Source: Baffinella frigidus (taxonomy: Eukaryota > Cryptophyceae > Cryptomonadales > Baffinellaceae). From it: a stretch of 31,562 nt of DNA. Position numbers and translations under genes: made by a program. The stretch lies in the NCBI GenBank assembly GCA_026770585.1, contig MU646595.1, positions 401,742 to 433,303 on the forward strand, given 5' to 3'. Below the pieces are notes generated by a model that was not told the DNA's origin, made no database searches, and saw only the letters and a program-made list of their open reading frames with translations. This document shows positions 7,301-30,359 of this stretch, piece by piece; position 1 is the first letter of the stretch; the number at the start of each line of letters is the position of its first letter.

Positions 7301-8176
7301 CATAAACCATAACCCATAAACCATAAACCATAAACCATAAACCAGGAGTACGACGACACAGCGCACGGGCACGTGACAGTCACATCCGCGTGGGAAAGCA
7401 CGGCGCGTGCGATATCCCCCCCCATCGATGACGACGTCTTCAACCTCACGCCCCTCGGGTGGGCCGAGCAGCCGCCATCTGCCGCCGCCGGGGTGGGAGG
7501 ACCTGCCGGGGGGCAGCAGCCGACTCAGTCGTTTGGGGAGGGGCTGCACATCCCCGGCGTTCTCCGCGAGCATGAGGCACCCCACCCTCCGAAGCCGCGC
7601 CCCCGCGATCCACTCGAGCCTCCGCCCCCCGTGCGGTATCTCCGCCGGTCGTCGTCATCCACGGAGCCCAGCGTGCCGTCGTCATTCCGGTTCTCGTCTC
7701 CGCAGCGCGGCGCGTCCGTGCGGGCGGTGGACGCTCTGCCCGCGTGGGGGGGGGGGCATTTCGTGCCGAGTGGAGAGCGGGTCCAGCAGGCTGGTGTTCT
7801 GGGCGGGGGGGCGATGCACGATACCTGGGGGGGGCTGCTGGAGCACCCAGTGTCGACGCTGGGCGGGGGAGTGGAGGAGGGGGTCGGCGAGGCTCAGGTG
7901 AGGCCTGAACCCTGAACCCTGAACCCTGAACCCTGAACCCTGAACCTGAAATCCTTAGCCCTAAATCAGGCGAGGGTGCGCGAAGCGGGGAGGGAGAACC
8001 AAGTGCGCATGGTTGAGATGGCCGCGGCGGCGCGCGTGAAGCACGGGGAGCAGATGACGTGGGTGATGCGGAAGCATCAGGCGGCGCTCGCGTCTTCCAA
8101 GGCCAAGCACGTGGCGCTGCGGGCGTCCGTCGAGGTGGCGTGGCGGGTGGCGGGGCGGAGGTTTGGGGAGACGTGA
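4365..8176 (+). CDS. Ankyrin-repeat protein with N-terminal SH3-like module, seven exons
   Basis: Exons 4365-4898, 5235-5293, 5458-5599, 6514-6621, 6766-6873, 7346-7897 and 7970-8176 join in consistent phase to 569 codons plus stop. Residues 6-54 (ITGLEASPQHNGKCCTLTKF, then GRWKVKLESGEDFAVRPRNL) resemble a small beta-barrel module often seen in algal multi-domain proteins. Ankyrin repeats follow: residues about 85-130 (VGSTALMAAARRGHDHVCLL), FSALHIACVNGHEK|VVGVLLAGGADV, LPLHEAAKQGTCEVVAMLLE and GDT|ALHLASRAGRAQLVEFL. Repeats spanning exon junctions confirm the splicing. The last third is Pro/Gly/Arg-rich, ending in a basic helical exon (ARVREAGRENQVRM to RRFGET). Function is unknown beyond protein binding. 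The ATG at 4365 was chosen because upstream in-frame codons lack a Met. Intron 3 is partly, and introns 5 and 6 almost wholly, telomere-like repeat. The exon 5 acceptor is the least certain junction. Confidence 0.75.
4996..5099. mobile_element. Palindromic element in intron 1 of the ankyrin gene
   Basis: AATAGTGCCCTGGAAGG at the left and a complementary arm ending CCAGAACACTATT at the right enclose ATTTTACCTTG / CAAGGTAAAT and a short central GGGTCA-CTTT-TGACCC hairpin. The unit is about 104 bases with arms of about 45. I saw no other copy in the window. A MITE-like origin is inferred. Confidence 0.7.
5610..5935 (+). repeat. Telomere-like CCCTAAA array inside intron 3 of the ankyrin gene
   Basis: Degenerate 7-mers (CCCTAAA, CCCGAAA, CCCTGAA) run almost without interruption on the sense strand. 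A short inverted start at about 5648-5672 (GGGTTAGGGTTTAG facing CCTAAATCCTAAACCC) gives a small hairpin. The rest of the 914-base intron (5936-6513) is non-repetitive. It carries an apparent partial duplicate of the next exon's start (GCGCTGCACCTCGC at about 6405). Confidence 0.9.
6636..6756. repeat. AT-rich imperfect palindrome forming most of intron 4 of the ankyrin gene
   Basis: The left arm GTATTTCAATAATTGC and inner CGAAATTTA are answered by TAAATTTCG and GCAATTTATTAATAC on the right. The surrounding gene is GC-rich, so this 120-base AT-rich block stands out. It fills nearly all of the 144-base intron 6622-6765. The intron may therefore derive from an inserted hairpin element, which is inference. 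Confidence 0.6.
6889..7344 (+). repeat. Telomere-like array occupying intron 5 of the ankyrin gene
   Basis: The array passes through zones of different 7-mers: AACACTC, CCCTGAA with CCCCGAA, CCCTAAA, then from about 7242 AAACCAT and AGACCAT. It ends AAACCATAAACCAG, where the last unit supplies the splice acceptor. The 7-base period is kept throughout while the unit sequence changes. Confidence 0.9.
7898..7969 (+). repeat. 72-nt intron 6 made of CCCTGAA units
   Basis: The intron starts GTGAGGCCTGAACCCTGAAC, continues with six CCCTGAA-type units and ends CTTAGCCCTAAATCAG. Both flanking exons are in phase 0. The residues either side are VGEAQ and ARVRE. Almost nothing but repeat and splice sites is present. 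Confidence 0.8.
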
Positions 8177-10083: not shown

Positions 10084-10872
10084 AGAATTACCAGAAAAGG
10101 TTTTCAAACTTTTTAAGCACCAGCTTTTTTTTAAATTAACCAACTGCCAGTTTGGGCCAGTTTGTTCATCAAAAAACTGAAAAACTGACCTACATACCAG
10201 CTAGGTTCACGTTTCTGTTCGTATAAGACTGACTGATGGGTTTTCACTGATTGTTTCTCGTTGGCCACAGTAAAATAAAGATGTTGGTGGATTACTTGTT
10301 TTTTTAGGAAGAATCTGAAATATTTTGCACGGGCCAGGAAGTAGGAGGGAGGCAGTTGATTAAAAAATCAAATTTGCGCGTGGCGTTTCTAGGTCCTGCT
10401 GAAGCTCGTACAACACAGCCTCAGTGGGTATCCAGGCTTATAAATACTATTACAGCCAAGGTGCCCTTGAGCCTGGACATCCCCAGGCTATGTAGGGCAA
10501 CTTGATAGTTATTCACCGACAGAGTAGGGAGTCTTTTTTCTCTGCTCACACACCTAGTCTGCAAGAGAATGAGCCTAGATACCCACAGCCTCCGTGTATG
10601 GCAGGCGTGTCGAGTGAATACTGACTCCACTCGTACACAACGCGCAGAGATCGCACGACCTCTCGTCAGGTCCTACTCAGACACAGCCTCTGTGGGGGTG
10701 CACACATGGGGGCCGTGTTGGTATTAACACAAGTCTCATTCGTGTCATGTGTGGGCAACGACGCACAAGCGCCACTTCCCTCGGGGGGGCGCCACCCTCG
10801 ACGTAACGATCTCCTATCCCTTTTCAGGGTTAACCCACTTAAAAGTGGCCAGTAGGCTCATACGCCCTAGAT

Positions 10873-10949
10873 GTAGGGTTTAAGGTTTAGGGATTAGGGA
10901 TTAGGGATTAGGGATTGAGGTTTAAAGTTTGGGGTTCATGATTTGGGGT

Positions 10950-10995
<46 letters not shown>

Positions 10996-12070
10996 GATTT
11001 ATTGTTTTGGAATTGGGATTTAGGATTTGGGGTTTGTGGTCTCGGGTTTAAGGTTTAGGGTTCAGGGTTCACGGTTCAGGGTGTAGGGCGTAGGGCGTAG
11101 GGCGTAGGGTGTATGGTGTAGGGATTGGGGTTTGCGTGTAGGGTGTAGAGTGTAACGTGTGGGGTGTAGGGTGTAGGGTGTAGAGTTTTGGGTTTTGGGT
11201 TAAGGTTTAGTGTTTAGGGTGTAGGGTTTATGGGTGATGGTTGAGAGTTGAGGGTTGAGGGTTGAGGGTTACGGGACTAAGTATCAGGGTTTAGGGTTTA
11301 GGGTTTAGGGTTTAGGGTTCAGGGTTCAGGGTTCAGGGTTAAGGGTTAAGGGTTAAGGGTTTAGGGTTGAGGGTTGAGGGTTGAGGGTTTAGGGTTCAGG
11401 GTTTGTGGTTGAGAGTTGAGGGTTGAGTGTTGAGGGTTACGGGACTAGGTATCAGGGTTCAGGGTTTAGGGTTTAGGGTTCAGGGTTTAGGGTTCAGGGT
11501 TGAGGGTTCAGGGTTCAGGGTTAAGGGTTAAGGGTTAAGGGTTTAGGGTTTAGGGTTTAGGGTTTAGGGTTTAGGGTTTAGGGTTCAGAGTTCAGGGACT
11601 AGGGGGGTTGGAGGTTAGGAGTCAGTGGTAAGGGTTTAGGGTGTAGGGTGTAGGGTACAGGGTTTAAGGTTCAGGGTTTAGGGTTCAGGGTTTGGAGTTG
11701 AGAGTTGAGAAAATCCAGTGTGTAGGATTTAGGGTTGAGTCGAGAAAATCCAGTGTGTAGGATTTAGGGTTCAGGGTTTAGGGTTTAGGGTGAATGGTTT
11801 TAGGGTTTAGGGTTGATTGTGTATTGTTTAGAGTTTTGGGGTTGGGGTCTAGGATTCAGGGTCGAGGGCTCAGGGTTCAGGGTTCACATTTTAGGGTTTG
11901 GGTTTCAAGTTTGAGTTTTTAGGCTTCAGGGTTGAGGGTGTCTGGTTTAGTGCTTGAGGTTTTGAGTGTAGGGTTCAGGGTTTAGATGTGAGGATTTAGG
12001 GTTTAGGGTGTGGGGTTTGGGAATGGGGTTTGGGGATTGTGGGATTGGGTTTAGGGTTCAGGTTCTGGGG
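10873..12070. repeat. 1.2-kb degenerate TTTAGGG-type array (intergenic)
   Basis: Seven-base units dominate, with TTTAGGG, TTGAGGG, TTCAGGG, TTAAGGG and GTAGGGY zones. Blocks of one variant run for several units before switching, for example six TTGAGGG units at about 10945-10993. Larger repeats of about 170 bases are visible: the phrase GTTACGGGACTA(A/G)GTATCAGG occurs at about 11268 and 11436. It is interstitial, flanked by unique DNA on both sides. Confidence 0.95.
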
Positions 12071-12617
12071 TTGTTGTAACGAAACTGCTCCCCCCGCTCG
12101 CAGGGTGTTTTCCCAGCGTTCTAGGGAGTTAGGGTGTTGGCCCAAGGGTTTGATACCTCCCACAAGGAAAACACATTGGGCCACATATAGAAAAAGGTGC
12201 AGCTGGGGTGATTTGTTTTTGTTTTGCCACTCCCTCGCTGTGTCCTGTCAGCGCGCCCGCTTTTTTTCTGTGAGAACACCCGCACTTTGCATGGAGCCAG
12301 TCTCCATAAAACATCGAGCCCCACCTTCTCTGACCACCCCCCGCTCTTAAAGCCAGTTCGGCGGATACTGACTATCTTAACGACTCAGGCAGGTGACCTT
12401 GGAAGGTTAATCGAAGGTAAAGCCGGTCCTATCCGTGCGCGAACAAATCAGCAACAGGGCAGGCGGCTTCAGGGCCCCAGTACCTGCCAAAGCACTCGTG
12501 GCACGCACCGAACGTAACGGAGAACCAAAGGCCCTGTGGCATTTGTGGAGCGGTAGTTGCGCGCGAGGCCCGAGATGAATGCACACCGTTCACTGACTCT
12601 CCTCCCCACACCGCGCC

Positions 12618-13026
12618 CTACTGAAACACCTCGACATAGTCAGCAGGCAAGCTGCTCATCGCCGGCTGGTAGGGGTTGCCCGGCAGCCCCCAGCGCTGCG
12701 GCTCGAAGCCCGGAGGCCCGTAGATGTACACCACGCCATTGTCGGCCGAGTACTGCACAGCACCAGACAGGCAACGGTTGAGGAGTGAGGGTCTAGGGAA
12801 AGCAGCTTCACAAAACAAGCGGGTGGGTGGGCCAGGCACGCGCAGCATGCACCGGATGCGATGAGCGGGCACTGACCGCGTTGACCTCGGACTGTCCGTC
12901 CGGGACGGAGAACCCGGGCGTCCCCACCCCAGTCTCGTTGAGCGCCTGGAGTGTCGAAACCAGCATCGCCCAGCAACCTGAAGAAAGTTGACTGAAAATC
13001 CGATTTGCCCCTTCATCCTGGGGCAT
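12618..13026 (-). CDS. Small two-exon ORF, 94 aa, unknown function
   Basis: Exons 13026-12877 and 12752-12618 join in phase 0 (donor GCG|GTCAGT, acceptor TGCTGTGCAG|TAC). The product starts MPQDEGANRIFSQLSSG, contains STLQALNETGVGTPGFSVPD, and ends LPADYVEVFQ. It is rich in Gly, Pro and Tyr in its second half (VVYIYGPPGFEPQRWGLPG). No membrane segment or known domain was recognised. Its ATG shares the four bases CATG with the oppositely directed carbonic-anhydrase start, so at most one of the two starts can have a normal leader on a separate transcript. In the second copy (14954-15361) a single base is missing, which shifts the frame. It may be a real small gene, the 3' part of a longer gene, or chance. 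Confidence 0.4.
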
Positions 13027-13275
13027 GGTGAGCGAGGCCCTCTTGGGGGGATCGCCTCCACGGAGAGGGGGGCAACGGGCAGCGGCGGCGGCCTCGCTGG
13101 TGGCTGTCGCGCTGGCCGGGGCGCTGCTGGTGGCGGCATGGTTTGTGGATACTTGCCCATGTGGGATGACCGGAGTGACTTTACACCTTCACGTCCACTA
13201 AGGAGATACAGGAGACACAAATCAATCCCCTAGGGATGACACTCGCGGCCAGGCTTGCTGCTCGGTCGGGATAAG
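13025..13275 (+). pseudogene. Truncated duplicate of alpha-carbonic anhydrase exon 1
   Basis: The start matches the intact gene at 15360: MVSEALLGGSPPRRGGQR followed by the hydrophobic stretch LVAVALAGALLVAA. The frame then runs into the inserted segment at 13137, adding unrelated residues and a stop near 13200. A short tail of homology (ACTCGCGGCCAGGCTTGCTG) resumes at about 13237, and no further exons follow. Only the anchor segment could be made. Confidence 0.85.
13137..13232. mobile_element. Family G insertion in the truncated carbonic-anhydrase copy
   Basis: These about 95 bases are absent from the otherwise identical second copy at 15471. Inside are GGATACTTGCCCATGTGGGA, GACCGGAGTGACTTTACAC and TCACGTCCACTA, matching family G at 8297 and 20805. 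The paralogue thus gives an empty site, which defines the element's ends to within a few bases. Confidence 0.8.
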
Positions 13276-13296
13276 AAGGGGTACTGCGTATGGTTT

Positions 13297-14395
13297 TGGT
13301 TTAGGGTTTAAGGTTTAAGTTTAGGGTTTAGGGTTTAGGGCTTGGGGTTTGCGGTGCAGTGTGCAGGGTTTGGGGTGTAGGGTGTAGGGTGTAGTGTGTT
13401 GTGTGTAGGGTTCAGTGTTTGGGGGTTTGGGGTTCAGGGTTTGGGGTTCAGGGTTTAGGGTTGAGGGTTTGGGGTTGAGGGTTGAGGGTTTAGGGATTAG
13501 GGTTTAGGGATCAGGGATGAGGGCTTGGTAGTCAGGGTACAGGGCTTAAGGTTTGGGGTTTAGGGTTCAGGATTTAGGGGTTTAGTGTTTAGTGTTTAGG
13601 GTTTAGGGTTGAGTGTTTTGGGTTTAGGTTTTAGGGTTCAGGGATTCAGGATTCAAGGCTTATAGTTTAGGGTTGAGGGTTAAGGGTTTCAGGTTGGGGG
13701 TTGAGGGTTTAGGGTTTAGGGTTTGAGTTTTGGGTGTAGGGTGTAGGGTGTAGGGTGCAGGGTTGATGGTTCAGGGTTTAGGGTTTAGGGTTCAGGGGTA
13801 AGGGTCCAGCATTCAGGGTTTCGGGTTTCGGGTTTCGGGTTTCGGGTTTAGGGTTTTAGGGTTTAGAGGGTTTGGGGTTTAGGGTTCAGGGTTAAGGGTT
13901 TAGTGTTCAAGATTTAGGGTTTAGGGTTCAGGGTTCAGGATTTGGGGGTGAGGGGTTTGGAGTTAGTGGTCAAGGGTTAGGGGTTAGGGTGTAGGGTAAA
14001 GGATTCAGGGCTCATGGCTTTGAGTGCAAGGTTGTGGGTTAAGTTTTCAGGGGTATGTGTTTGGGGTTTAGGATGTAGGGTGTAGGGTTCAGGGTTAATG
14101 GTGTAGGGTTTAGGGTCAATGTTTTTAGGGTTCAGGGTTTATGGTGTATGGTTTAGAGTTTGGGGTTTGGCGTAAGAGTTTAGGATTTAGGTTCAGGGTT
14201 CAGGGTTCAGAATTTCGGGTTTGGGTTTCAGGGTTTAGCTTTTAGTGTTTAGTGTTTAGGGTTTATGGTTTATGTTTATGGTGTTTGTTTTAGAGTTTAA
14301 GGTTTGGGGTTTAGGATTTCAGGGTTTCGGGTTTAGTGTGTGGGTTTTGGGGGTTGGGGTTGGGGATTGTGAGATTGGGTTTTAGGGTGAATGTT
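13297..14395. repeat. 1.1-kb degenerate TTTAGGG-type array between duplication copies
   Basis: The 7-mers are TTTAGGG, TTCAGGG, TTGAGGG, GTAGGGT and a short TTTCGGG run (about 13818-13845). Variation is greater than in the 10.9-12.1 kb array. It lies between the two segmental duplicates and may have mediated the duplication, which is inference. Confidence 0.95.
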
Positions 14396-15512
14396 CTGGA
14401 GTTTTTGTAACGTAACGGCTTCCAGGGTGTTCCCAGGTTCCCAGCGTTCTAGGGAGTCGGGGTGTGGGCCTAAGGGTTCGACACTTCCCACAAGGAGAAA
14501 ACGTTGGACCACACATGGAATAAAGGTGCAGGTGCCCTGAGCTGGGGTGATTGTTTTGCGCCACGCCCTTGCTTTGTCGTGACAGCGCGCCCGCTTTTTT
14601 CCTGTGAGAACACCCGCACTTTGCATGGAGCCTGTCTCCATAAAACATCGAGTCCCCCATCCTCTGAACCCCCCCCTTCGGCAGCTCTCAAAGCCAGTTC
14701 GGCGGATACCGACTATCTTAACGACTCAGGCAGGTGACCTTGGAAGTTCAAGGTAGAGCCGGTCCTATCCGTGAGCAAACAAATCAGCAACAGGGCAGGC
14801 GGCTTCAGGGCCCCAGTACCTGCCAAAGCACGCGTGACACGCACCGAACGTAACGGAGAACCAAAGGCCCTGTGGCATTTGTGGAGCGGTAGTTGCGCGC
14901 GAGGCCTGAGATGAATGCACACCGTTCACTGACTCTCCTCCCCACACCGCGCCCTACTGAAACACCTCGACATAGTCAGCAGGCAAGCTGCTCATCGCCG
15001 GCTGGTAGGGGTTGCCCGGCAGCCCCCAGCGCTGCGGCTCGAAGCCCGGAGGCCCGTAGATGTACACCACGCCATTGTCGGCCGAGTACTGCACAGCACC
15101 AGACAGGCAACGGTTGAGGAGTGAGGGTCTAGGGAAAGCAGCTTCACAAAACAAGCGGGTGGGTGGGCCAGGCACGCGCAGCATGCACCGGATGCGATGA
15201 GCGGGCACTGACCGCGTTGACCTCGGACTGTCCGTCCGGGACGGAGAACCCGGGCGTCCCCACCCCAGTCTCGTTGAGCGCCTGGAGTGTCGAAACAGCA
15301 TCGCCCAGCAACCTGAAGAAAGTTGACTGAAAATCCGATTTGCCCCTTCATCCTGGGGCATGGTGAGCGAGGCCCTCTTGGGGGGATCGCCTCCACGGAG
15401 AGGGGGGCAACGGGCAGCGGCGGCGGCCTCGCTGGTGGCTGTCGCGCTGGCCGGGGCGCTGCTGGTGGCGGCGGGATGGCACTCGCGGCCAGCCTCGCTG
15501 CTCGGCCGGGTT
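14338..15512. repeat. Segmental duplication, right copy
   Basis: This is the partner of 12005-13275 at an offset of about 2335 bases. It lacks the family G insertion and continues directly into the intact carbonic-anhydrase gene. A one-base deletion relative to the left copy lies near 15297 (CGAAACAGC against CGAAACCAGC). Confidence 0.9.
14954..15361 (-). pseudogene. Frameshifted second copy of the 94-aa ORF
   Basis: Exon 2 (15088-14954) is identical to the left copy and ends LPADYVEVFQ. Exon 1 starts MPQDEGANRIFSQLSSGCWA, but a missing base at about 15297 turns the following STLQALNETGVG frame into an unrelated Arg/Ser-rich one. Either this copy is dead or the ORF was never coding. Confidence 0.5.
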
Positions 15513-18500
15513 TTCGGCCGTGGACCGTTCCAGCAGCTGGCCTACGATGGGCCGACTGACACGCCCCCCGTGACGTGGTACTTTCCGGCAACGGATACGC
15601 AGAACACGCTCGGCTACACATGGAACGAGGCGCAGGTACGCTGGCTCGGCTAGCAGGTCCAGGGAAGAGGCAATGTTTTTTTTTTGTGCCCGCTTTCCTG
15701 GCAGCTGTCATTGCAAGTTCAGGTGTCGTGTTGGTACTGCTAAATGGCAGCTGGCATGGCAAGTGCAGCTGGCTTTGAGCATTGGTGGTGATCAGGCAGG
15801 CAGCCAGCTGCCAGCCAGCCAGCCAAGCTACCCAGCCAGCCGCCAGCCACCAGCCAGCCAGGCGTCTAACTTGCGTTGGTGCTGCTGAGTGGCAGTATCA
15901 GGATGTCGGCGGCACGTACATGCCTGGCGTGATGACAGACAACGGCCTGGCCCAGTCCACCGCGGTAAACCCTAAACCCTAAACCCCAAACCCCAAACCC
16001 TAAACCCTAAACCAGAAACCAGAAACCCTAAACCCTGAACCCTAAACCCCAAACCCTAAACCCTAAACCCTAAACCCTAAACCCTGAACCCTAAACCCTA
16101 AACCAGGACACCATCGGATTCAACACCGGGCCCACAACCACCGCGCAGCCCTTCGGGGCAGGCGGGCCCTACTCGTATGGGGGTGGCGAATCTGCCGGGC
16201 AGATCTATTATCAGTCGGAGGATTCCTGGGCCTCGGCGAAGAAGGGGCGGGCGACGGCGCTGAAGCAGCGGGGGGCGCAGACGACGATGCTCGCGGCGGA
16301 GTCGGACATCGATGAGATGGAGGGGGCACTGGCGCAGTCGGCGAGCAGCAACGCGCGGAAGAAGGCCGCGCGGGATGACCCGCTCGAGGACAGGCTCAAC
16401 CAGAAGCTCGCGCAGATCCACGGGAAGGGCAGCGGGGCCGCGGCGCAGAGCACGTACCAGGCGCTGCTCAACGACCTCAACCTCTCGGATGAGCTGGCTG
16501 GGGCGTCGCTGGGGGGGAAGAAGGGGGCAGCCGCGCATGCGCAGGCAGTGATCCAAGCCGGGCAGGCGAAGCAGGCTCAGAAGCAGAGCCTCAAATCGCT
16601 CAAGAGCATGCACTTCAACATCGACAGCGTATCCCCCCCCGCGCGGTATTCGCCGTATGCGCAGCCGAGCTACGCCGTGGCGCCGCAGAAGCCGGTGCAG
16701 GCGCTGGGGTCCGTGGATCCGTTCGAGTACGCTGAGGGCGCGGACACCTCGTCCCCGTTCCAGACGCAGAGTGACAACGTGGTGGGGGCGTTCCCGGTGA
16801 ACTCGGCGCTGAGCTCGGCGACGAGCAACAGCTTCGGGATGCAGAAGGACGTGATCATGCAGGCTCCCGCGACGATCCTCCCGCCTGCCGTGTCGTACAC
16901 GCCCGCGCAGCCGCAGTTTGTTAACGCGGGGCAGATATACCACCACGGGGAGAACTGGGCGTATACGGGGGAGAACGGGGCGGAGAACTGGGGGGACAAG
17001 AATGCGGCGTGGAGAGTGTGTAAGACGGGGAAGAACCAGAGCCCGATCAACCTGGAGCTGAACCTGAAGCGGGACGATAACCTGAAGCCGCTGCGGTGGA
17101 TTGGGAGCACGAACCCGTATGAGGCGTCGCTGATCTCGCCGCTTTACAAGAACGCCTTGACGGTGCCCGCCCTGTCCACCAACCCTGCTCCGTGCTGCTC
17201 AGCCTCCGACTTCTAGCTTTGCTTCAGTTAATCTGGCCTCGTCGAATAAGGAGACCGGAAGTTGACTGAAGTTGATTCCCAGGTGTTGTAGTATACACCC
17301 GCCAGCATTTGGTGCGAAAACGATGAGTCAACCCGACTGAGACAGAGCTAGGACTTCCCGCAGGCGCTTGCGTGCGCGGTGGACAAGGTGTTGACTGTTG
17401 GTGTCTGCAGGTGGAGGGGCTGCACGGCAAGATGACCGTGAGCGGGGAGGACATGCACCTCAAGAGGTGCGCCCAACTTCTCTTCGCGGCCCTGGATAGA
17501 TTTTATCTCAGATGTGCGTGTGGCTTGGAGCCATTTCAGAGCTTACTCACTTTGAGGGGTTTAAAATACCTGGTTTTGTATCAGAAATCCTCAAATAGAC
17601 GTCTTGCGAAATAAAAGCTATTGTGGTCTGGGGCTAATTCGTGCGCCTCCCGCACGTCATCGCGATGGAGTGGCTGGCGTCGAGTGCTTGCTGTTTTGAA
17701 GCGATTCAATCGGGGCGAGTGTTTTATTTAACTCCCCTTCCTCTCTGCTCATAGGGAATTGGACCATGAGCCTAATTTCCCAAGGAAATGCTCAAATTCC
17801 CTATGGTAGCGAGTATTCAAAATAGATACTCGTCTGGATGAGATTCGAATGACGTGCGGTGAATAGATTCGAGCGGGAAAAGGCATAGTCTCACCAAATC
17901 GACTGAGACAGAGCTAGGGGTTCCACTTTCTTGCGGTGAACAGAGTCGATGCGATGTGCCAGGATCTGATGGTGTGTGTTTGGCAGTGCGGTGATCCACA
18001 CGCCGAGCGAGCATCGCTTCCAGGGGCGGCAGATGCATGGGGAGATTCAGTTCGAGCACACGGCCGAGGTGCTGCCCTGAACCCTAAACACTAAACACTA
18101 AACACTGAACACACACCACTAAATAATAAACCCTGAACACTAAACTCTAAACACTAAACCCTAAACTCGGACCCCCAAACCCCAAACCCCAAACCCCAAA
18201 CCCCAAACCCCAAACCCTACCCGCCGCCCCTACACCCACCCTCCAACTCTCACCATCCCCCAACCCCCACCATCTGTGAAGTCTTTGTTCCAGGAAACGC
18301 GCGAATTGGTCAACGATCGTGCATGAGATTCTGGTGCAGGATTTTGTCCCATGGGGGTGACCATCCCCGCGCGTTCCAGGCTCTGCCAGCTGGGAAAGCT
18401 CACGGTGTCTTTGGTGGAAAGGCCAATTTTCTCTCTGGATCCAACGGCGTGCGCGCGGCTGGAGGTCGGAACGTTCGGGTCTGATGCGTATCGATGCGTA

Positions 18501-20797
18501 TCCTTGGAAGCTCCAGTCTCGCAAAGAGGGTCTGATGCGTGTTTTTGAAAGCTCCAGTCTCGGAAACGGAAATCCCGGTCTCAATTTATTCAATAGTACG
18601 AACATCCTCTCGATAGACGAGCTGTGGTTTCTCACGCTCCAACCGTTTCTCACGGTTGTTTCTCACGCTCTTGCAGGTGGACGGGCAGGACGTGACGATG
18701 ATTGTATCAGCGTTCCTGGTGGTGTCCGACCACACGGCGCCCTCGCTCCGCACGTTGTTCGACGCGGTCTCTTTCCCTAAACCCTTTAGGTTTAGGGCGT
18801 GGGGAACTCTAAACCCTGAATCCTAAACACTCAACTCTAAACCCTAAACCCTAAACCCGAAACCCTAGACCCTAAACTCTAAACCCTAACCCTAGACCCT
18901 AAACCCTAGACCCGAAACCAGGTCTCGGGCTACGAGGGGGTCTACCGCGCGGACAACTTGGGGACAATGGGTCACTACCCGAAACCCGAAAACCTGGACC
19001 CGAAATCCAACACCCTAAACCCGACAACCCAAACTCGAAACCCGAAAACCGAAAACCGAAATTCGAAAACCGAAACCCTAAATTTTAAACCCCAAACCCC
19101 AAACCCAACCCCCACACCAGGGTATTACCCGCCGCAGTACGCGCAGGACGTGAAGCCCGACTTCTGGGTCAACCCTAAACCCTAACCCCCAAACCCTGAA
19201 CACTGTTCCCTAAATCCGAACCCTAAACCCCAAACCGTGAAGCCTGAACCCTACATCTCAACCCCTAACCCCTAAACCCTAAACCCCCACCACAAACCCT
19301 AAACTCTAAACCCTAAACCCTAAACCCTAAACCCTAAACTCCAAACTCCACACCCCAAACCCTCAACCCGAAACCCGAAACCAGGTGAACACCGCGAAGC
19401 TCGCAGAGGACGTGTTGGGCACGGGGTCGAACTACGCCAACTATTTGACGTGCGTGCCCCTCACACAGCGGACTTTGAAGGGATTTTCGGGCACTGAGAG
19501 TCCGAGTTTCCGCAACCTTATCCGTAGGAACCCCCCTATGTCCCTACGGGTCGCCTACCGTAGGGTCGTAGGTATGATCGCTTAAGGGTTATTCAGAAAC
19601 CCCTTCGACTTTCGCTGTGTGGCACACCGGAAACCTGAAAGGCGGGTTGGAGGGTTGAGGGTTGAAGGTCGAAGATTTGTGGGGTCAGGGTTGAGGATCG
19701 ATGATGCTTTGCTGCGGGGACCTTCGCGCCCCTTGTTCCGCTTGAAAGCAAGCATGGTTTTCTATTGCCGAACGACCAGCGCCAGCACCGCGCCTCACGC
19801 GTTCAGTTGGAATCCTGGTGTATGGTTTCCCTTGCGCGAGCGTCGCGGCTGCCAGGGAGTCGCGAGGCAGGGAAGCAGCGGTGCAGATCATCCTCGGCTG
19901 GCAGGGAGTGAGGCAGCAGTGTAGCCTCTGACTGTGGTTAGGGAGTGAGGCAGCAGTGTTGACTCGGACTGCGGTCAGGGAGTGAGGCAGCGGTGCAGGT
20001 TATCATCGGCCAGCAGGGAGTGAGGCAGCAGCGCAGCATCTGACTCTTTGTTCAGGAGTGAGGCAGTAGTACAGGCTAGCGTCAGCTGGCAGAGAGTGAG
20101 GCAGCAATGCAGCCTCTGACTGTGGTCAGTCAGTGCGGGAAGGGTGCAGCCTCCCTCTGAACGGGGAGGTGTCGTGTTGATGGCAGGTACTACGGTTCCT
20201 TGACAAAGCCGCCGTGCACGGAGGGGGTAACTTGGGTAAACCCTACACCCTAAACCCTGAACCCTGAACCCTGAACCCAACCCTAAATCCTGAACCCTAA
20301 ACCCGAAACCCGAAACCCGAAACCCTGAACCCGAAACCCTAAAACCTAAACCCAACACCATACACTCCACACCCCAGACCCCAAACCCCAAACCCCAAAT
20401 CCCAAACCACAAACCCAAAACCTCAAACCCCTAACCCAAGACCCCTAAACCCTGCACCAGGTGCTGCTGAAGACGCCGATCCCGATCGCGGCGTCAGACC
20501 ACGCGATCCTGCTCGAGGAGCAGGGCGCGCTCAACTACCGCCCCACCCAGGAGCTCTACGACCGCGAGGTACCCCCGAAACCCGAAATGCGGAATGCGGA
20601 ATGCGAAATGCGGAATGCGAAATGCGAAATGCGAAACCCTAGACACCAACCCCCAAACCCCAACACCCAACACCCAAAACCTGAAAACCCAAACCCAAAC
20701 CCCACACCTCAAACCCTAAATCCTCGATCCTAAACCCTAGGTGTACGACACGGCCACGGGACGCTCGGGTGGTTTCCAATCGCCCGGCTTCTTCTAA
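15360..20797 (+). CDS. Alpha-carbonic-anhydrase-like protein, twelve exons, zinc site degenerate
   Basis: Exons 15360-15635, 15896-15964, 16107-17162, 17411-17466, 17987-18068, 18677-18766, 18922-18970, 19121-19167, 19385-19449, 20187-20235, 20461-20568 and 20741-20797 join in exact phase to 667 residues. Residues about 21-37 (ASLVAVALAGALLVAAG) form a signal anchor. Residues about 93-395 are an Ala/Gln/Ser-rich extension of unknown role. The carbonic anhydrase domain starts near residue 399 (WAYTGENGAENW, GKNQSPINLELN). It continues with HTPSEHRFQGRQMHGEIQFEH, YYGSLTKPPCTEGVTW, VLLKTPIPI and NYRPTQELYDRE. Catalytic family members bind zinc with His94, His96 and His119 (CA II numbering). Here the FHFH block reads AVIH and ExHxxH reads EIQFEH, so His94 is Val and His119 is Gln. 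Thr199 and Glu106 are kept. It is therefore probably non-catalytic. Six introns are telomere-like repeat. Confidence 0.85.
15783..15872 (+). repeat. GCCA-type microsatellite in carbonic-anhydrase intron 1
   Basis: Repeated CAGC/CCAG tetramers (CAGGCAGGCAGCCAGCTGCC, then CAGCCAGCCAGCC) fill much of the end of the 260-base intron 15636-15895. A T-run (GTTTTTTTTTTG) at about 15674 and a twice-seen TGGCAGCTGGCATGGCAAG phrase precede it. Confidence 0.8.
15965..16106 (+). repeat. Intron 2 of the carbonic-anhydrase gene: wholly telomere-like
   Basis: The 142-base intron begins GTAAACCCTAAACCCTAAAC and ends AAACCCTAAACCAG. Units are CCCTAAA with CCCCAAA and CCAGAAA variants. Exon phase is 0 on both sides (QSTA | DTIG). 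Confidence 0.95.
18077..18223 (+). repeat. Telomere-like tract at the start of intron 5
   Basis: It starts seven bases after donor GTGCTGCC with TGAACCCTAAACACTAAAC and passes through ACACTAA units to CCCCAAA. It ends in a C-rich stretch, then non-repetitive DNA fills the remaining about 430 bases of the intron. That part has a 26-base direct repeat (GAAGCTCCAGTCTCG at about 18507 and AAAGCTCCAGTCTCG at about 18547). Confidence 0.85.
18767..19384 (+). repeat. Introns 6, 7 and 8: three telomere-like introns separated by tiny exons
   Basis: Intron 6 (18767-18921), intron 7 (18971-19120) and intron 8 (19168-19384) are CCCTAAA/CCCGAAA-type throughout. They are separated only by exon 7 (49 bases) and exon 8 (47 bases). 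Intron 6 carries a perfect-looking hairpin CCCTAAACCC-TTTAG-GTTTAGGG just after the donor. Intron 7 drifts to GAAAACC units. Intron 8 starts GTCAACCCTAAACCC and ends GAAACCCGAAACCAG. Confidence 0.9.
19850..20145 (+). repeat. 37-39-bp minisatellite in intron 9
   Basis: About seven units each start with (C)AGGGAGTGAGGCAGCAG and continue with variable GTGCAGCCTCTGACTGTGGTC. The 737-base intron 9 (19450-20186) has no telomere-like tract, apart from GGTTGAGGGTTGAAGG at about 19650. It also contains a family B-like fragment CCTACCGTAGGGTCGTAGG at about 19555. Confidence 0.85.
20236..20740 (+). repeat. Introns 10 and 11: telomere-like, with a mutated 7-mer array
   Basis: Intron 10 (20236-20460) starts GTAAACCCTACACCCTAAAC and ends CCCTAAACCCTGCACCAG. 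Intron 11 (20569-20740) starts GTACCCCCGAAACCCG, then holds seven AATGCGR heptamers (about 20585-20634), then CCCAACA and CCCTAAA units, and ends AAACCCTAG. Exon 11 lies between at 20461-20568. Confidence 0.9.
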
Positions 20798-23393: not shown

Positions 23394-25561
23394 TCACTTC
23401 GTCGTGATTGCTGCAGCCTCCTTCTCAAACTGAAGCGCCTCATCGTGCTTGCCCAGCTTCTTGCACACGTTGACCATGCCGCTGTACGAGTTGGCCACCT
23501 CCTTGTCGTTCTGCCTGCCATTGATGAAGATGCCGAGGCCGTTCTTGTACTCCTCCAGCGCATCTTCAAGCTTTCCCTGCTTGTCGTACACTGTGGCAAT
23601 GCCGTAGAACGCGAAGGCCGCGTCCAAGTGAGCCTTGCCCTTGATCGAGATGTCACGGCTTTGCGTGTACTTCTCCAGCGCCTCCTCGAGCTTGCCCTGC
23701 TTGAAGTAGACGTTGGCGATGCCCATGCACGCGGACGTCACGTGCGGGTGGTCCGGCTGCTTCTTGATCTTGATGGCGAGGCTCTGCTGGAACATCTCCA
23801 GCGCCTCCTCCAGCTTGTTCTGCAAGAGGCTATGATCGCCCAGGTTCTGGTACGAGTTGGCCACGTCCGGGTGGTCCGGCTGGAGCATCTTGTGCCTGAT
23901 GGCGAGGCTCATCTTGTTCAGCTTCAGGGCTTCGTCGTGCTCGTCCATCGAAACATGCAGGTTGGCCATGTTGTGGTACGATGCGGCGACGGCGGGGTGG
24001 TCCTCACCAAACACATGTTTTTTGATGTCGAGGCTCTTCGTGTGAAGCTGCAGCGCCTCCTGGTACTTGCCCTGAATCTTGTACACGATGGCCATGTTGT
24101 TGTACACATCCGCCGCGCTCGGGTGCTTTGGCCCTTGCACCAACGTTATGACGTCGAGGCCCTTCTGGTACAGCTCCAGCGCATCCTCCAGCTTGTCAAG
24201 ATACTTGGTGCAGATGGCCATTCGAACGTAACAAGTGCCCACGTTCGGGTGGAGCGGACCGTGCACCCTGATCACGATGGCGAGGCCCATAACAAGCATC
24301 GCCAGCGCCTCGACGAACTTGCCCAGCTTTTGGTACAAGTTGGCCAGGTGAATGTACGGCACACGACGGTGGTCCGCCCCGTGCAAATCGACCATGATGT
24401 CGAAGCCCTTCTGAAAAAAAACCAGCGACTCCGCATACGTACCCTGTTCCTCGTGCGATACAGCCATACCGATGTAAATTAAGGCTACGACGGCCCGGTC
24501 GTGGCCAGGTTGCTTGATCGAGATGGCAAGGCTCTTCTCCCAGAGCTCCAGCGAAATCTCGAACTTGCCCTGCTTGCAGTACACGTTGGCCATGCCGTTG
24601 TACGAGGCGGCCACGTCCACGCCGTCTAGCCCGATCTTGACCCTGATCGAGAGGCTGTTCTTGAACTCCTCCAACGCCTCGACATACATGCCCTTCTGAC
24701 TGTACACACCGGCCACACCGTGGTACGAGTGTGCCACGTCCTCGTGCTCGGGCCCGTGCACCCTGATCCTGGTCTCAAGACTGTTCTTGAACAGCTCCAG
24801 CGCCTCTTGGAAGGAGAACGACACGTCGGCCAGGAAGATCGCGGTCTGATGGCAGAGACGTGCAATCATCTTTTCATCTTCGGCAGTGCGTTGCGTCGCC
24901 CCTCGCTTGTCGTGACGGACGGCTGCTTTCACGTGGGGAGCATGCACTCTGCCCACACCGTGCGTCCCAGGCAGATCGCAATTGAAGCCCTTCATTCCAG
25001 AGTCCAGCGCAGTCAGCACCGCAAGCAGGGAGCTCCCCTCGAACTTCTCCAGGCCCGGGAGCTTGCGCACAGCATCCTGCGTCAGCGCGTGCATCGACAA
25101 TCCTCCCGTAGCGCTGTCCACGACAAGCGAGTGCCTCTTCAGAGCGCTGATGTTCGACCATTCAAGTTTCTGCACGACACGGCCGCACAAGGTTCAATGA
25201 AAAATTGTGAAGAGCATAAGATTGTGAAAAGCATGTGATCCATGTGAGCTGTCGAAGTCATACAGACCGTTCATCACAAGGCATACTCAATTACAGGGTT
25301 CTGAACGCATCTGTCGCACGGACCGAGTCATCAAAGAAGCCAAACGTGGCAATTATGTGATACCTGAGAGCCGTTGAAATCATGGAGGATTTGAATGCAT
25401 ACAATCACTCCATGGCAAGTACGATCAATCGTAAGGTGCTAGAAACATCGATCTCAGATTCTTGGGATGAGAGTGCAGCTCACCGTGAACAGTGTCTTCA
25501 AGAAGACGATGCCGTCTTTGTGAAGGTAGGACATCTTCAGCAGCAGGCCAATCGCTCCACC
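23394..25561 (-). CDS. NLR-type gene, 3' part: winged-helix remnant and twelve TPRs (exons 4-5)
   Basis: Exon 4 is 25561-25484 and exon 5 is 25169-23394, both joining in phase 0 with the part at 28090-30288. Exon 4 encodes GGAIGLLLKMSYLHKDGIVF, a typical helix from the winged-helix region after NB-ARC. Exon 5 opens ISALKRHSLVV and GLSMHALTQDAVRKL, the ALxxLxxxSLV / iHxLvQdvvR pattern that precedes TPRs in NB-ARC-TPR proteins. About twelve 42-residue kinesin-light-chain-type TPRs follow. Each has a form like VAxSYxNMAxVYxxQGKxEEAL and then xxxKSLxIxxxxxGxxHPx, running to a terminal FEKEAAAITTK. Such TPRs act as ligand-sensing or protein-binding arrays in STAND proteins. The frame is open for 592 codons with no breaks. 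The junction T|KLEW between exons 4 and 5 could hide a further small exon. Confidence 0.85.
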
Positions 25562-26854
25562 CTGCACACCAACGATGTAGATATCAAAATCACATTCCTT
25601 CGCGCCACTTGCTTCCACTGCATTCTTGGAATTATGTGTGTGCAAGCCACATTTGATAGACGCTGAGTGTAGAGAGCTTCGTGAAAAGAGCTCTCAGGGT
25701 GAGGATCATAAGTAGTGTGGTCATAACTTTGCTGGCTTTCGTACATCGGGAGAAACCTGTTCACTTGTTTTCACGTATCTCTCTCTGAACTTTGCGTACA
25801 TGGGGGAAAACATGTACATTTGTTTGGTTCGACATCTGAGGCATCCCTGGTTGGAGCTCCTGTGACGTCGGGATACCATGGGCGTGCAGCCGACTTGTTG
25901 TCCTGGTGTATGTGTGAGTATGGCAAGCAGCTGGTGTACCTTCACATGCCCGATGAGAATACATTTTGGCCGATTTCTGCTGCGATCCTCTGCACCGGGG
26001 AGATTAATTGGTCTTGGTAAGTAGATTACTTGGTCTTGGTTAGTAGATTACTTAGTCTTGCTCAGTCTTGATTAGTAGACAGATTACTTAGTCTTACATA
26101 GTCTTGGTTAGTAGATGTCTTAGTCCTACTCAGTCTCGGTTAGCAGCTGGAAAGCTCTCCCCCCACCGACTTGCTCTGTGGAAGCGGACTTCTTCGGGGG
26201 TAGACAATCGACTCGGTTCACAGGGAGAAAGGTGTTAAAATACATTCAACCTAGGGGTTGACCTAGGGGCCAATGTCTCAACCTCTAGCCTCTTTGATTC
26301 GTTTCAGAGATGTCATCAAAACACCATCTTCCCAAAAAAGAACATTTTTTTCCTTGCGAGAATCCACTGGAGAGCAGGCGATTTCCGGCAACTCTGATAA
26401 TTCAACTCTTCACTCAGACGAATATTGAGTGCGTCAGAGGCGTTGAGATATGTTCCCCACAATCCGGCCCGTTCGGGCCGCAGAAATTGCTTTCACGTCA
26501 AGTACCTTCGCAACTTTGTTTGACCTTTTCATAGGGGTGGCCCTCAACTCTCTGAACCCGAGACCCTGAGCCCTAGACCCTGAATCTGAACCCATCAACC
26601 CTCAACCCTCCACCCTGAACCCTGAATTCTGAACCCTGAGCCCTCATCACCTTGAACCCTGAATCCTGAACCTTAGGGTCTAGGGTTTAAGATTTAGGAT
26701 TTGGGGTTGAGGGTTGAGGGTTTAGGATTCAGGGTTAAGGGTCTAGGGTTTTGGGTTAAGGGTCTAGGGTTTTGGGTTTAGGGTTTAGGGTTGAGGGTTG
26801 AGGGTTTGAGGTTGAAGGTGCAGGGTTTAGGGTTGAAGGTTTAGGGTTTAGGGT

Positions 26855-26893
<39 letters not shown>

Positions 26894-28089
26894 GGCTAAG
26901 GGCTGAGGGTTTAGGGTTTAGGGTTTGGGGTTGAGGGTTGAGGGTTTAGGGTTCAGGGTTTAGGGTTTAGGGTTTAGGGTTTAGGGTTTAGGGTTTAGGG
27001 TTTAGGGTTTAGGGTTCAGGGTCTAGGGTTTAGGGTTTAGGGTTCAGGTTTTAGGGTTTAGGGTTTAGGGTTTAGGGTTTAGGGTTTAGGGTTTAGGGTT
27101 TAGGGTTTATCTGACAGCAGGGGGCGGTGGGACCGAAGACATTCGCCGGCAGGCGCCAGCTGTGACTCTAGCTAGGTGGCTAGGGGAACTAAGGGTTCGA
27201 AGCTTCTGACAGCAGGGGGGCTGTCTAGGAGGGCGGCATGGGGCCGCTGTGCGGGCTGAGGCCGCAGGTCGACTGAGTTGTGTACTGAAGAGAACAGGTG
27301 GCTCCTCGCGAGAGGGGCCTAAAGTGGACACTCGGTCTAAAGTGGCCGTGACTTGTGTAAAGTCACTCCGCTTGGGCCTACATGGGGGATATCCCTGGAT
27401 ATCCCCAGAGTTTAGGCGGGAGGCCAGAAGGTGATCCAAAAGGAAGCATGGCTTTTCTACAGAAAAAAATCCGGTGTCCAACTTTGTTGAAAGCTCGGAG
27501 AAACGACAGGAACTAAATCCAGCAATAAGTTTGCCAATCTCCGTGCATGGGGGGGAAACTCCACAATTTTTAGGTTCGACATCTGTGGTATATGAGCCTT
27601 ACGATGAGAACCTCGGGCCTTCAGCCGACTTGCTGGTCCTGGTTTGTGTGCGAGTGCAAACCAATTTGTTTCAGCTCAGATGCCCGATGAGGATACCCTT
27701 CAGCCAATTTCTGCTGCGATCCTCTGCACGGAGGGGGCTAATGTGACCCGAAAAGAAGCATGGCTTTCCTGAAGATAAGGTGCAGTGCCGCCTATGTTGG
27801 GAGCTCGAAGAACCTAGAAGACCTTAAGGACCTATCTGATGGTGATCTTGTACGGATTTATCATGGAAAGAGTAAAAAATAGCTCATACAAGGACAGCTC
27901 TCGCTCTCATCTAATTCATGTTTAAGCCACGAGGAGGAGCCATAAGCACTCGTCCTCTGGAGATCCCTCCCGCCTGAAGCGTGTATGAAACCAACACAAT
28001 TTCCAAACATGCCACACCACTGTGCAAGCAACAACGCATTTTTGAGACTGGATCTCATAGATTGAATCGTACAATCGCCTCTTGCTCAC
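25562..28089 (-). other. Long intron 3 of the NLR gene, filled with repeats
   Basis: No exon was supported inside this 2.5-kb intron. From low to high coordinate it holds a family F-related segment (about 25830-26005) and a degenerate tandem repeat TTAGTAGATTACTTAGTCTTG (26008-26145). Next come AT-rich unique DNA and the telomere-like block at 26540-27108. Beyond that are a reverse family G fragment (about 27336-27410) and a reverse family F copy (about 27431-27835). The segments 25830-26005 and 27560-27745 resemble each other (GGTTCGACATCTG, GCCGACTTG, ATTTCTGCTGCGATCCTCTG), so both are pieces of a longer family F element. Confidence 0.7.
26540..27108. repeat. Telomere-like block with internal inversion, in NLR intron 3
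   Basis: From 26540 to about 26670 the plus strand is C-rich (CCCTGAA, CCCTCAA units). At about 26672 it flips to G-rich (TTTAGGG, TTGAGGG) until 27108, where a run of about ten pure TTTAGGG units ends the block. The main part therefore reads CCCTAAA on the coding (minus) strand. The point of inversion reads CTGAACCTTAGGGTCTAGGG. Confidence 0.95.
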
Positions 28090-30288
28090 CGAGTCGTCGC
28101 CATCGGCCTCGTCGACCTCGTCGGCCTTCTTCAGCCTCTCACAGATCATGGATATCATCTGGTCAAAAAGTGGCGAGTCAGAATACGCAAACGCTACTCT
28201 GGAGAGTATGGGCGTACGTCGGCTCGCAAAGTCCACCCAATACAACGGAGTTCAAAGGGGTTTCGTGGGTAACCTGTTAGCGATAAGTCGTAGGACCCTC
28301 CAGTGTCAATAGCGTAGGGACATAAGAGGGTTCCCACGGATCAGGTAACGGAAACTCGGCCAGAATCTCACCTCAAATTCCTTCAAACCCCGCTGTGTAG
28401 TTGAATCCGACTTGGCTTCATAAGTTATCTTGATCTATGTCTCGTCTTTCACTACAACCTCATCCCACACTTGTTTCGTGCGGCATAAAAGCAGGGACCC
28501 ACTCATCTGTTTTGAAAGAGTCAGAGCAAGACGCAAATCAGCATGATCAACCCTCAGAGTCACAACCAACCACATAATCAGGGCCTGGAACACACCTGCT
28601 CGAAAGTCGAGGGGTACTCTCCACTCCGTAGGATCCTCTTCGCCCACTTCCTTTGCAAAATTGAGTTGCTCTCTGCCTGCCAACAACATCAAGCATCAGT
28701 CAGCGAAACAACTTGAAACCAGATTTCGCAAGAACTCTGGTCCCCAACCCAACCCCCCACCCCTCACTTTGTCTTCAAAGGGTGCAATCCTTGAGAATCA
28801 ACGCAAGGGCGCAAGGCAAACCTGTTCTGCCAAGTACGCCGCAGGGCTGTCCATCGACCACTCGAAGGCGAAGGCTGCAGCTTGCTCGATCGCCAGAGGT
28901 AGGAGCCCGAGTGTCCGCACCAGCTCAAGCACCCCTGCCTTGTCCCCCGCCCAGTTCGCCATTCGGCTTACAACCCACGTGCATGCCTCCAACTCCGTCA
29001 TGCCTTGCAGCGCAAGCTTCTCCCACTTCCCCGCCCCCCCCTCCTCGGCCCAGCCAGGCGATCGAGACGTCACCAGCGTCTTCCCACATCCAAACGGAAA
29101 GTCCTTCGCGATCCAGCTGGCCCGTTCCTCCTGCGGATCCGGCAGATCGTCCAGCACGACCATCCATCTCCCTTTCCATTCCTCACTCGCCAGCAACCGA
29201 TGAACGAGCGCTCGCAGATCTTCCTCCTTCATTTCCTGAAACCCCGAGTCCCTCTTTGCCCCCAACGCCTCTGCGAGCTCCGAATACACGCCCATGCAGC
29301 TGCCGTCCGTAAGAGAGAGAAAGAGAACTGCCTCCTTCACCCCATCTGCCGCCGCCCACGCTGCAAACATCTTGCCCAGGGTCGTCTTCCCCATCCCACC
29401 CAGACCGTGCACCAGCATTCGATTCTTTGAGGTAGCCCCCCCATCCTTGGCCCACTCCCGCAGCTTCTCCAGTTCCGCGTCGCGCGCTTGAAACGCTCCC
29501 GTATTATCCTGAGACACGCCGAACAGAATCCTGCGCTTGACCGACTCTGCTGCTTCAACGCTGGGTGTCAAATAAAACTTGAAGGCATCATCACCGAAGA
29601 GCTGAAACCCTCGCGTCACCTTCTCTTCAGAAAAGATATTTGCGTTTCCGAAACTCGTCTGGAGCGACTTTCCAAGACCGAGATTGTTGAAGAGCGCCTC
29701 CGAAAACCCAAGCGCAGACTTTTCAGCCACGGGAACGCCGTGACCGATGACAAAATCGATGCCCTGGAGCTGCCTCCCGCCGAAGAGCCCCCCCAGATGA
29801 AACTTTTTAGCGAGTTCCGCCGAATTGCACGCGCTGATCACTAGCAGCCGAATCCTCTTCTCCGGCGCATCAACCTCCTGGTTGCTGGAGAGAATGGTGT
29901 GCAGCAGGGTGTCGTCGTCGATGAAGCCCGAACCAACATTCGAGATGTAGAGCCCGGCCCCATCCGGTCCATCCGCATCCTCGCCGTGGCATGAGAGGAG
30001 CACGATTGTCGGCTTTTCCTCCCCAATCGATAGATGGCTGAATCGTAGCTGGAACTTGACGCTCTTCACGACGTCAAAGCGCTCCGACTTCGACGCGCCG
30101 TAAACGAAGGCCTTCTGCACTTTGTTGAACTCCGCGTCCAGTTGCAGCACCCGCATGAACATTCCACACTGATCCACCATGTTTGCTCCCACGAAGAGCA
30201 CGTTCACCTCTGGAGGCATTGCGACGCAACGGCCAGCTTCTTGCATAGGCGTCCCATGCACCGCAGCACGAGGCTCAACTCGTGGCAT
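28090..30288 (-). CDS. NLR-type gene, 5' part: CHAT-like protease and NB-ARC (exons 1-3)
   Basis: Exon 1 is 30288-28822, exon 2 is 28676-28596 and exon 3 is 28158-28090, all phase 0. With exons 4-5 the protein is about 1156 residues. The first domain starts VNVLFVGAN and shows PTIVLLSCHGEDADG and LLVISACNSAELAKKF, the His and Cys motifs of CHAT/caspase-fold proteases, then IDFVIGHGVPV. NB-ARC follows: P-loop MLVHGLGGMGKTTLGKMFA (about 29418-29361), Walker B RWMVVLDDLPD, TLVTSR, and LGLLPLAIEQAAAFAF. Exons 2-3 encode KWAKRILRSGEYPSTFEQ and SMICERLKKADE, continuing into exon 4. NB-ARC-TPR proteins oligomerise on ligand sensing, and a CHAT effector would then cleave targets. That role is inferred here. 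The N-terminus is uncertain: the frame stays open to about 30393, with an acceptor-like CTGCCAG|GCGCAG at about 30359, so an upstream exon is possible. Confidence 0.85.
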
Positions 30289-30359
30289 CTCGTCGAGTGA
30301 CGACCCCGCTCCTTGCAAAGGCGCTCCCTGCACCGCCGCAGGAGAATCGAGCTGCGCCT

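Follow-up and report, generated by a model that had tools for sequence, protein, structure and literature searches.

Introns built of telomere-type repeat in the cryptophyte alga Baffinella frigidus

The origin of new introns has long been debated; of the mass gains on record, those best documented go back to transposons. Introners carry or complete their own splice sites, spread through genes and are excised exactly, and introns can also arise by tandem duplication of AGGT-containing exon pieces, the duplicate giving both splice sites. Passages on introners describe target duplications of 3–9 bp, with inverted repeats in some families, and the main text of that paper mentions neither Baffinella nor the stems cryptophy- and telomer- (Gozashti et al. 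2022, PMC9860276). Interstitial telomeric sequences are described, in passages of two papers, as inserted at double-strand breaks, with deletions, additions and target duplications at their edges; such duplications are given for 4.6% of rodent, 16% of primate and 4.5% of horse loci (PMC2246262, PMC7215372). Human exons lack these sequences, which one passage explains by stop codons in both orientations (PMC7215372). In the chlorarachniophyte Amorphochlora, many introns are recent and lineage-specific; half of an examined set carry a simple repeat, [AT]n, and several lie at AG/GN sites (a slash marks the junction) and are not assigned to introners, according to the passages concerned (PMC12730881). 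The genome paper on Baffinella sp. CCMP2293 puts the genome at 534.5 Mb with 41.1% repeats and 33,051 haploid gene models; neither intron nor telomer- occurs in its main text (PMC9756366). In a literature search that left most subscription papers and bioRxiv preprints outside, no title or abstract opening among those listed describes introns made of telomeric repeat.

Here we describe such introns in Baffinella frigidus, a unicellular alga of the Arctic, in an assembly (382 Mb) smaller than the published one. Like introners, the Baffinella insert brings or completes the splice sites itself, has spread among genes and is excised exactly; unlike them, it consists of telomere-type tandem repeat with no transposon family sequence seen, and its arrays lack terminal inverted repeats and have a duplication that is variable or absent. 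The arrays share with the mammalian sequences, as described in those papers' passages, their telomere-type unit, their internal position and, in some, a target duplication, but the Baffinella units are heptamers and the arrays abundant. In contrast to the human case they separate exons of functioning genes and are removed by splicing; the expectation that exons do not tolerate telomere repeats is contradicted here. The Amorphochlora repeat differs in not being telomeric, the telomere there being TAACCC, and the passages are silent on a repeat that fills an intron from end to end (PMC12730881). There is a resemblance to AGGT duplication where a duplicated exon piece may give both splice sites, as in HSP70 intron 13 and at an array on contig C226 (stretch L024), but the Baffinella introns are mostly telomere-type filler rather than the duplicated piece.

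The carbonic anhydrase gene and the excision of its repeats

The window, the whole stretch of 31,562 nucleotides analysed, lies at the end of contig C291 and carries an α-carbonic-anhydrase-like (CA) gene of 12 exons at 15360–20797 on the plus strand, in frame and open throughout (Table 1). All 11 introns are GT–AG, and the spliced product matches the Pfam α-carbonic anhydrase domain PF00194 (E 1.6e-22). The homologues are cryptophyte (Guillardia, Hanusia, Rhodomonas), and a search of the assembly for paralogues returned this single locus and a weak match on C1165. We measured telomere-type coverage as the fraction of an intron under CCCTAAA-like 21-mers with at least 15 of 21 matches. An earlier note, made from the sequence, had described six of the eleven introns (2, 6, 7, 8, 10 and 11) as almost wholly CCCTAAA-like heptamers, and measurement bears this out at 77–100% coverage. 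Shuffled versions of the same six introns reach 0.013–0.057, ruling out chance or base composition as the source of the heptamers. The repeat also supplies splice ends as that note had it, with GTAAACCC and GTCAACCC as donors and AAACCAG as the acceptor of introns 2, 6 and 8; introns 7 and 10 end in CACACCAG and TGCACCAG, respectively.

Table 1. Exons and introns of the CA gene in the window, with telomere-type coverage of the introns
Feature	Position	Strand	Coverage	Remark
Exon 1	15360..15635	+		exact match to P0001
Intron 1	15636..15895	+	0.00	not telomere-type
Exon 2	15896..15964	+		spliced mapping
Intron 2	15965..16106	+	1.00	telomere-type end to end, GTAAACCC...AAACCAG
Exon 3	16107..17162	+		spliced mapping
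Intron 3	17163..17410	+	0.00	not telomere-type
Exon 4	17411..17466	+		spliced mapping
Intron 4	17467..17986	+	0.00	not telomere-type
Exon 5	17987..18068	+		spliced mapping
Intron 5	18069..18676	+	0.26	partly telomere-type, array at 5' end
Exon 6	18677..18766	+		spliced mapping
Intron 6	18767..18921	+	0.77	telomere-type; starts GTCTC, same GTCTC opens exon 7
Exon 7	18922..18970	+		spliced mapping
Intron 7	18971..19120	+	0.96	telomere-type, phase 1
Exon 8	19121..19167	+		spliced mapping
Intron 8	19168..19384	+	1.00	telomere-type, GTCAACCC...AAACCAG; exon 9 opens GTGAAC
Exon 9	19385..19449	+		spliced mapping
Intron 9	19450..20186	+	0.00	not telomere-type; one short G-rich piece 19643-19701
Exon 10	20187..20235	+		spliced mapping
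Intron 10	20236..20460	+	1.00	telomere-type, GTAAACCC...CACCAG
Exon 11	20461..20568	+		spliced mapping
Intron 11	20569..20740	+	0.85	telomere-type, GTACCCCCGAAACC...CCCTAG
Exon 12 and stop codon	20741..20797	+		spliced mapping, P0001 match

From residue 2 to the C terminus, the spliced CA prediction equals a database protein of 666 residues, P0001, so the repeats are excised exactly from CA. The unspliced gene is 5.4 kb, too long for the 2228-bp contig from which P0001 comes, and this contig must therefore be a spliced copy; judged from that length it is probably a cDNA (its source is labelled 'jgi'). Together with the open 12-exon model and the Pfam match, this identity agrees with the note's statement that the exons join in phase into an α-carbonic anhydrase. 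For a second gene, CCT-α, our hand-spliced query equals the MMETSP transcript P0087 over 521 of 521 residues. For a third, an HSP70 gene on contig C62, the hand-spliced query and the partial NCBI model P0207 (Baffinella frigidus) agree at 477 of 479 columns and differ by a single Q at two of the junctions; the HSP70 junctions were taken from P0207, that is, from an NCBI gene model. Transcripts that keep the repeats had been named as the contrary case, and both P0001 and P0087 are free of them. Retained or mis-assembled repeats are ruled out, as these two transcript-like products skip the repeats exactly. The telomere-type introns are real spliceosomal introns, excised exactly in CA and CCT-α. 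Over the three genes the donor is GT in 43 of 44 introns and GC in one (CCT-α intron 16), and all 44 end in AG, in a spliced mapping that permitted only GT or GC with AG and reached a full solution under those borders.

α-Carbonic anhydrases are expected to have three zinc-binding histidines. Within 17987–18068 (around VIHTPSEH and EIQFEH) two of these positions look replaced, by V and Q, and those cryptophyte homologues that were read also lack these two histidines at the same places. The product may be a CA-like protein that lacks the usual zinc site.

Telomere-type introns beyond this gene and the bases at their edges

The 44 introns come from spliced mapping of CA, CCT-α (P0087) and the C62 HSP70 gene (P0207), which are not a random set: CA was given, and the other two were picked after arrays had been noticed at their loci. 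The CCT-α and HSP70 counts cover the introns within the examined stretches and not those further upstream; the CCT-α intron between EML and VFEG (site 13), which is broken by N, is omitted, and an automatic split reading of the CCT-α intron 6955–7406 with a GC donor was replaced by one GT–AG intron. Coverage is at least 70% in 22 of the 44, 30–70% in four, 5–30% in eight and at most 5% in ten, and 12 introns are at least 95% heptamer. Median length is 187.5 bp for the 24 introns with a coverage of at least 0.5 versus 312 bp for the 11 below 0.1. CCT-α introns 5 and 11 and HSP70 intron 7 are telomere-type but have no clean repeat start or end.

Arrays also occur within a gene that by eye looks WD40-like, in stretch L038, the one of five random 10-kb stretches (taken from 80 drawn) to contain them, and within a γ-tubulin-like gene in stretch L056. 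Seven further stretches, L073–L079, were picked from the list of donor edges, some for an acceptor edge nearby; in six of them coding-like sequence flanks the array on both sides by eye, the exception being L076.

The arrays are strongly oriented. Within five gene spans, 54 are C-rich and three G-rich in the sense strand (binomial p 4e-13, a value too small because one intron can hold several arrays); counted per intron, C-rich coverage exceeds 5% in 34 of 44 and G-rich coverage in three of 44. Since the CCCTAAA unit contains neither GT nor AG, this bias is explained without any preference at insertion. Internal GT occurs at 0.011 per base in the 24 introns of at least 50% coverage and at 0.064 in the 11 below 10%, and internal AG at 0.020 and 0.067, so that GT is about six times and AG about three times rarer in the telomere-type introns, in a comparison that omits the nine introns between the two classes. 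Read in antisense, the telomere-type introns would present GT at 0.135 per base.

The bases at the array edges indicate how splice sites could have been formed. We compared them genome-wide, tallying by hand the first 100 places of each listing. In CCCTAAACCCTAAACC-D-GG the base D is A at 88, T at 5 and G at 7 of the first 100 of 516 places; in CCCTAAACCCTAAACC-D-TT it is A at 28, T at 57 and G at 15 of the first 100 of 150. The excess of A before GG (88/100 vs 28/100 among the places listed; Fisher p 1.6e-18) concerns a base that replaces the last C of CCC and makes the acceptor CCAG/G. At the donor edge, D in G-D-TAAACCCTAAACCC is G at 64, T at 20 and A at 16 of the first 100 of 523 places, and in T-D-TAAACCCTAAACCC it is G at 35, T at 36 and A at 29 of the first 100 of 679 (G 64/100 vs 35/100 among the places listed, p 7e-5); the set with T in front is an impure control, as T before GTAAACCC serves as a donor in CCT-α intron 10 and HSP70 intron 8. 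The earlier note had let a one-base change of the repeat create the splice sites. This may stand for the acceptor, with CCC becoming CCA, but no mutation is required for the donor: where a target G meets an array that begins with TAAACCC, the sequence is already GTAAACCC; in some introns a duplicated piece of the target supplies the donor GT.

Among the 24 telomere-type introns, nine end in CCAG and ten in GCAG, the latter being also the commonest end of the 11 low-coverage introns (7/11). Acceptors may mature from CCAG to GCAG. The exact two-unit CCAG/G end is found in one of the 24 clearly telomere-type introns, and about 450 such ends are expected genome-wide (88% of 516, extrapolated from the first 100). 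HSP70 introns 7 and 9 (stretch L042) and CCT-α introns 10 and 11 (stretch L057) end in AACGCAG, which by eye sits twice within CGCAACGCAG, possibly as a shared 3' motif.

Relatives, insertion marks and the origin of the introns

Sites in relatives were read from protein products. P0092, a CCT-α fragment 90% identical to P0087 whose cluster lies on seven contigs (the longest 113 kb), is unbroken through CCT-α sites 4–16, that is, 13 sites. Its first 21 residues, up to the Baffinella intron 3 junction, have no match in place in P0087, and it reads as a mechanical genomic open reading frame that begins inside intron 3 and contains no further intron. The CA homologues P0009, P0011 and P0010 are unbroken at sites 2–8, 1–8 and 3–8, respectively, and all three turn to unrelated residues after YYG, as a genomic frame entering an intron would; sites 3 and 4 are uninterrupted in P0012 (labelled Rhodomonas salina). 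P0002, with a CA part 85% identical and either DNA- or cDNA-derived, is unbroken through sites 2–11. Within the Baffinella genome itself, C709 carries two HSP70 copies (80% identical) that lack introns and run for 642 residues without a break, versus 18 introns in the examined part of the C62 gene. These unbroken products favour gain in the Baffinella lineage over loss, although loss by way of cDNA would produce a like pattern. The relatives also lack the non-telomeric CA introns 3 and 4, and one of them lacks intron 1; telomere-type insertion is thus not the sole form of intron gain here. A comparison of tubulin paralogues was set aside, the intron-bearing gene on C276 resembling γ-tubulin by eye and not being comparable with the single-exon tubulins. 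In Hanusia phi, P0004 has 16 extra residues at the site of CA intron 10; they resemble a retained 48-base intron whose position would be shifted by one base relative to the Baffinella one.

We compared the two flanks of each of 91 arrays at a score threshold of 12; a further five, of 96 in all, had no usable flanks and were omitted. Direct repeats reach the threshold at six of the 91 arrays (0.35 expected; mean score P 0.003), and inverted repeats at none (0.11 expected, P 0.25). At L038, L077, L059 and CCT-α intron 5 (L057), array or array-like sequence also lies outside one copy, and in these cases an exon edge may have been tandemly duplicated along with its array; the repeat at L057:7312 does not abut its array. 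The sole clean one of the six, 19 bp long, is at the acceptor of CCT-α intron 3 (L057:2724). The array on C226 has a 14-bp direct repeat with no outer array, scoring 11.5, just below the threshold. Duplication length thus varies from 5 bp in CA intron 6 to 14, 19, 31, 37 and 38 bp elsewhere, with mostly none evident, and the three longest are possibly tandem duplications; a fixed length, as expected of a DNA-transposon-type introner, was not found among these arrays.

Exact short repeats occur as GTCTC in CA intron 6 and as GTGCG in the WD40-like gene, and in HSP70 intron 13 GTCTTCGAG at the intron start pairs with GTGTTCGAG at the exon start. Such short donor/exon duplications are weak overall: permutation P is 0.016 for the 24 introns of at least 50% coverage, 0.118 for the 34 above 5% and 0.065 for all 44, and the corresponding values for exon end versus intron end, the mirror test, are 0.21, 0.15 and 0.10. 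Copies of flanking exons inside introns are pronounced, with a summed score of 430 vs 326 (s.d. 8.9) that none of 2000 permutations reached. They are found in introns with and without arrays (CCT-α intron 9 has none), so that local duplication seems to be a general habit of this genome. Exon ends and their donors are copied into introns at L057:5122–5611, L057:580–1175 and L079, and one of the introns concerned is a CT-repeat intron without telomere repeat.

Most telomere-type introns probably arose in the Baffinella lineage when arrays were inserted into exons. A chromosome break would be repaired with telomere-type DNA as filler, coming from telomerase or a captured telomere fragment, and the target would sometimes be duplicated in the process. 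Only arrays that read CCCTAAA in sense would persist inside a reading frame, because a unit with neither GT nor AG offers no decoy splice sites. The donor would be formed by target G plus TAAACCC or by a duplicated target GT, and the acceptor CCAG by a change of CCC to CCA ahead of a target G; splicing would restore the old reading frame, and the array interior would then be free to decay. That a fresh insert was spliced from the first is plausible, since target G and TAAACCC already make a donor. Break repair fits best because the duplications are variable or absent, inverted repeats are lacking and the purest introns contain no other element. Gain by insertion, which the earlier note had placed in exons, is well supported, the relatives' proteins being unbroken at the sites; the polarity of gain and loss and the molecular route we infer.

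More broadly, and as a tentative proposal, telomere maintenance or telomeric filler could have been an intron factory, in which a non-mobile tandem repeat delivered at breaks made thousands of introns (a rough guess) and forms a separate class of origin. The repeat would work in this way because its C-rich strand has no internal splice signals and its edges make donor and acceptor. If true, this class stands apart from transposons, exon duplication and intronization. The make-up of the insert is known, many copies exist at differing stages of decay, and the repeat unit itself shows why one strand is favoured; a single culturable alga thus allows tests of origin, of splice-site birth and of decay.

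It is unlikely that the introns are old and acquired or expanded telomere-type repeat that displaced their prior sequence, with no intron gained. Mixed introns are common (8/44 with 5–30% coverage), arrays also lie outside genes (for example 10872–12062 and 13298–14351 in the window), the exon edges duplicated beside arrays suggest local rearrangement of arrays, and the extra residues of Hanusia P0004 are perhaps a retained intron one base off. But old introns fit poorly with relatives' products unbroken at 13 CCT-α and 7–8 CA sites, and with introns that are repeat from first base to last, of which there are several. Moreover, CCT-α intron 3, where P0092 also shows an edge-like break, has one of the lower telomere-type coverages (0.25) and exceeds the other 43 in length (1007 bp), and nine of the 12 measured introns not common to P0092 have at least 50% telomere-type coverage.

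We consider it improbable that telomere-filled introns are ancestral and that the relatives and the C709 HSP70 copies lost theirs through reverse-transcribed copies. P0092 does keep the 5' intron 3 and lacks all downstream introns, as cDNA-mediated loss predicts, and intronless HSP70 copies exist in the same genome. However, the CA homologues lack the mid-gene sites and yet seem to have introns of their own elsewhere, which independent gains fit better than loss from the 3' end.

An introner-like mobile element that is, or carries, the telomere-type repeat is very improbable: splice sites at the insert edges, exact removal and the 5–38 bp direct repeats of some inserts would suit it, but duplication length is not fixed, 12 of 44 introns, being at least 95% heptamer, could not accommodate other element sequence, and a form with inverted repeats is ruled out (0/91 arrays). 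The earlier note's view of a route distinct from introners holds as regards inverted repeats and, in the 12 purest of the 44 introns, the lack of space for a family sequence.

Arrays outside genes and other features of the window

A CCCTAAA-type repeat caps chromosomes in plants and many algae. In Baffinella, tandem telomere-type repeat is present at internal chromosome sites: (CCCTAAA)3 has 27288 forward and 25832 reverse matches in the 382 Mb, and the 100 matches listed are scattered along C1 between 187 kb and 1.96 Mb. The longest perfect arrays include one at C32:1019239. None of 13 contig ends, eight of which are N, showed a clean telomere cap; the end of C62 is 28% perfect TTTAGGG but degenerate.

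The intergenic arrays at 10872–12062 and 13298–14351 lie below a minus-strand gene, whose 3' end is duplicated along with the start of CA exon 1. The tandem duplication, of about 2.3 kb within 12600–15400, comprises that 3' end, an intergenic part and the exon 1 start, and in the minus-strand sense a CCCTAAA-type array of about 1.1–1.2 kb comes after each copy. At 26552–27109 a C-rich array directly abuts a G-rich one (CCCTAAA then TTTAGGG) in an inverted arrangement. Among the open reading frames on the minus strand at 28801–30438 and 23397–25193 are NB-ARC/AAA and CHAT-like matches and a long TPR (NPHP3-like) repeat protein.
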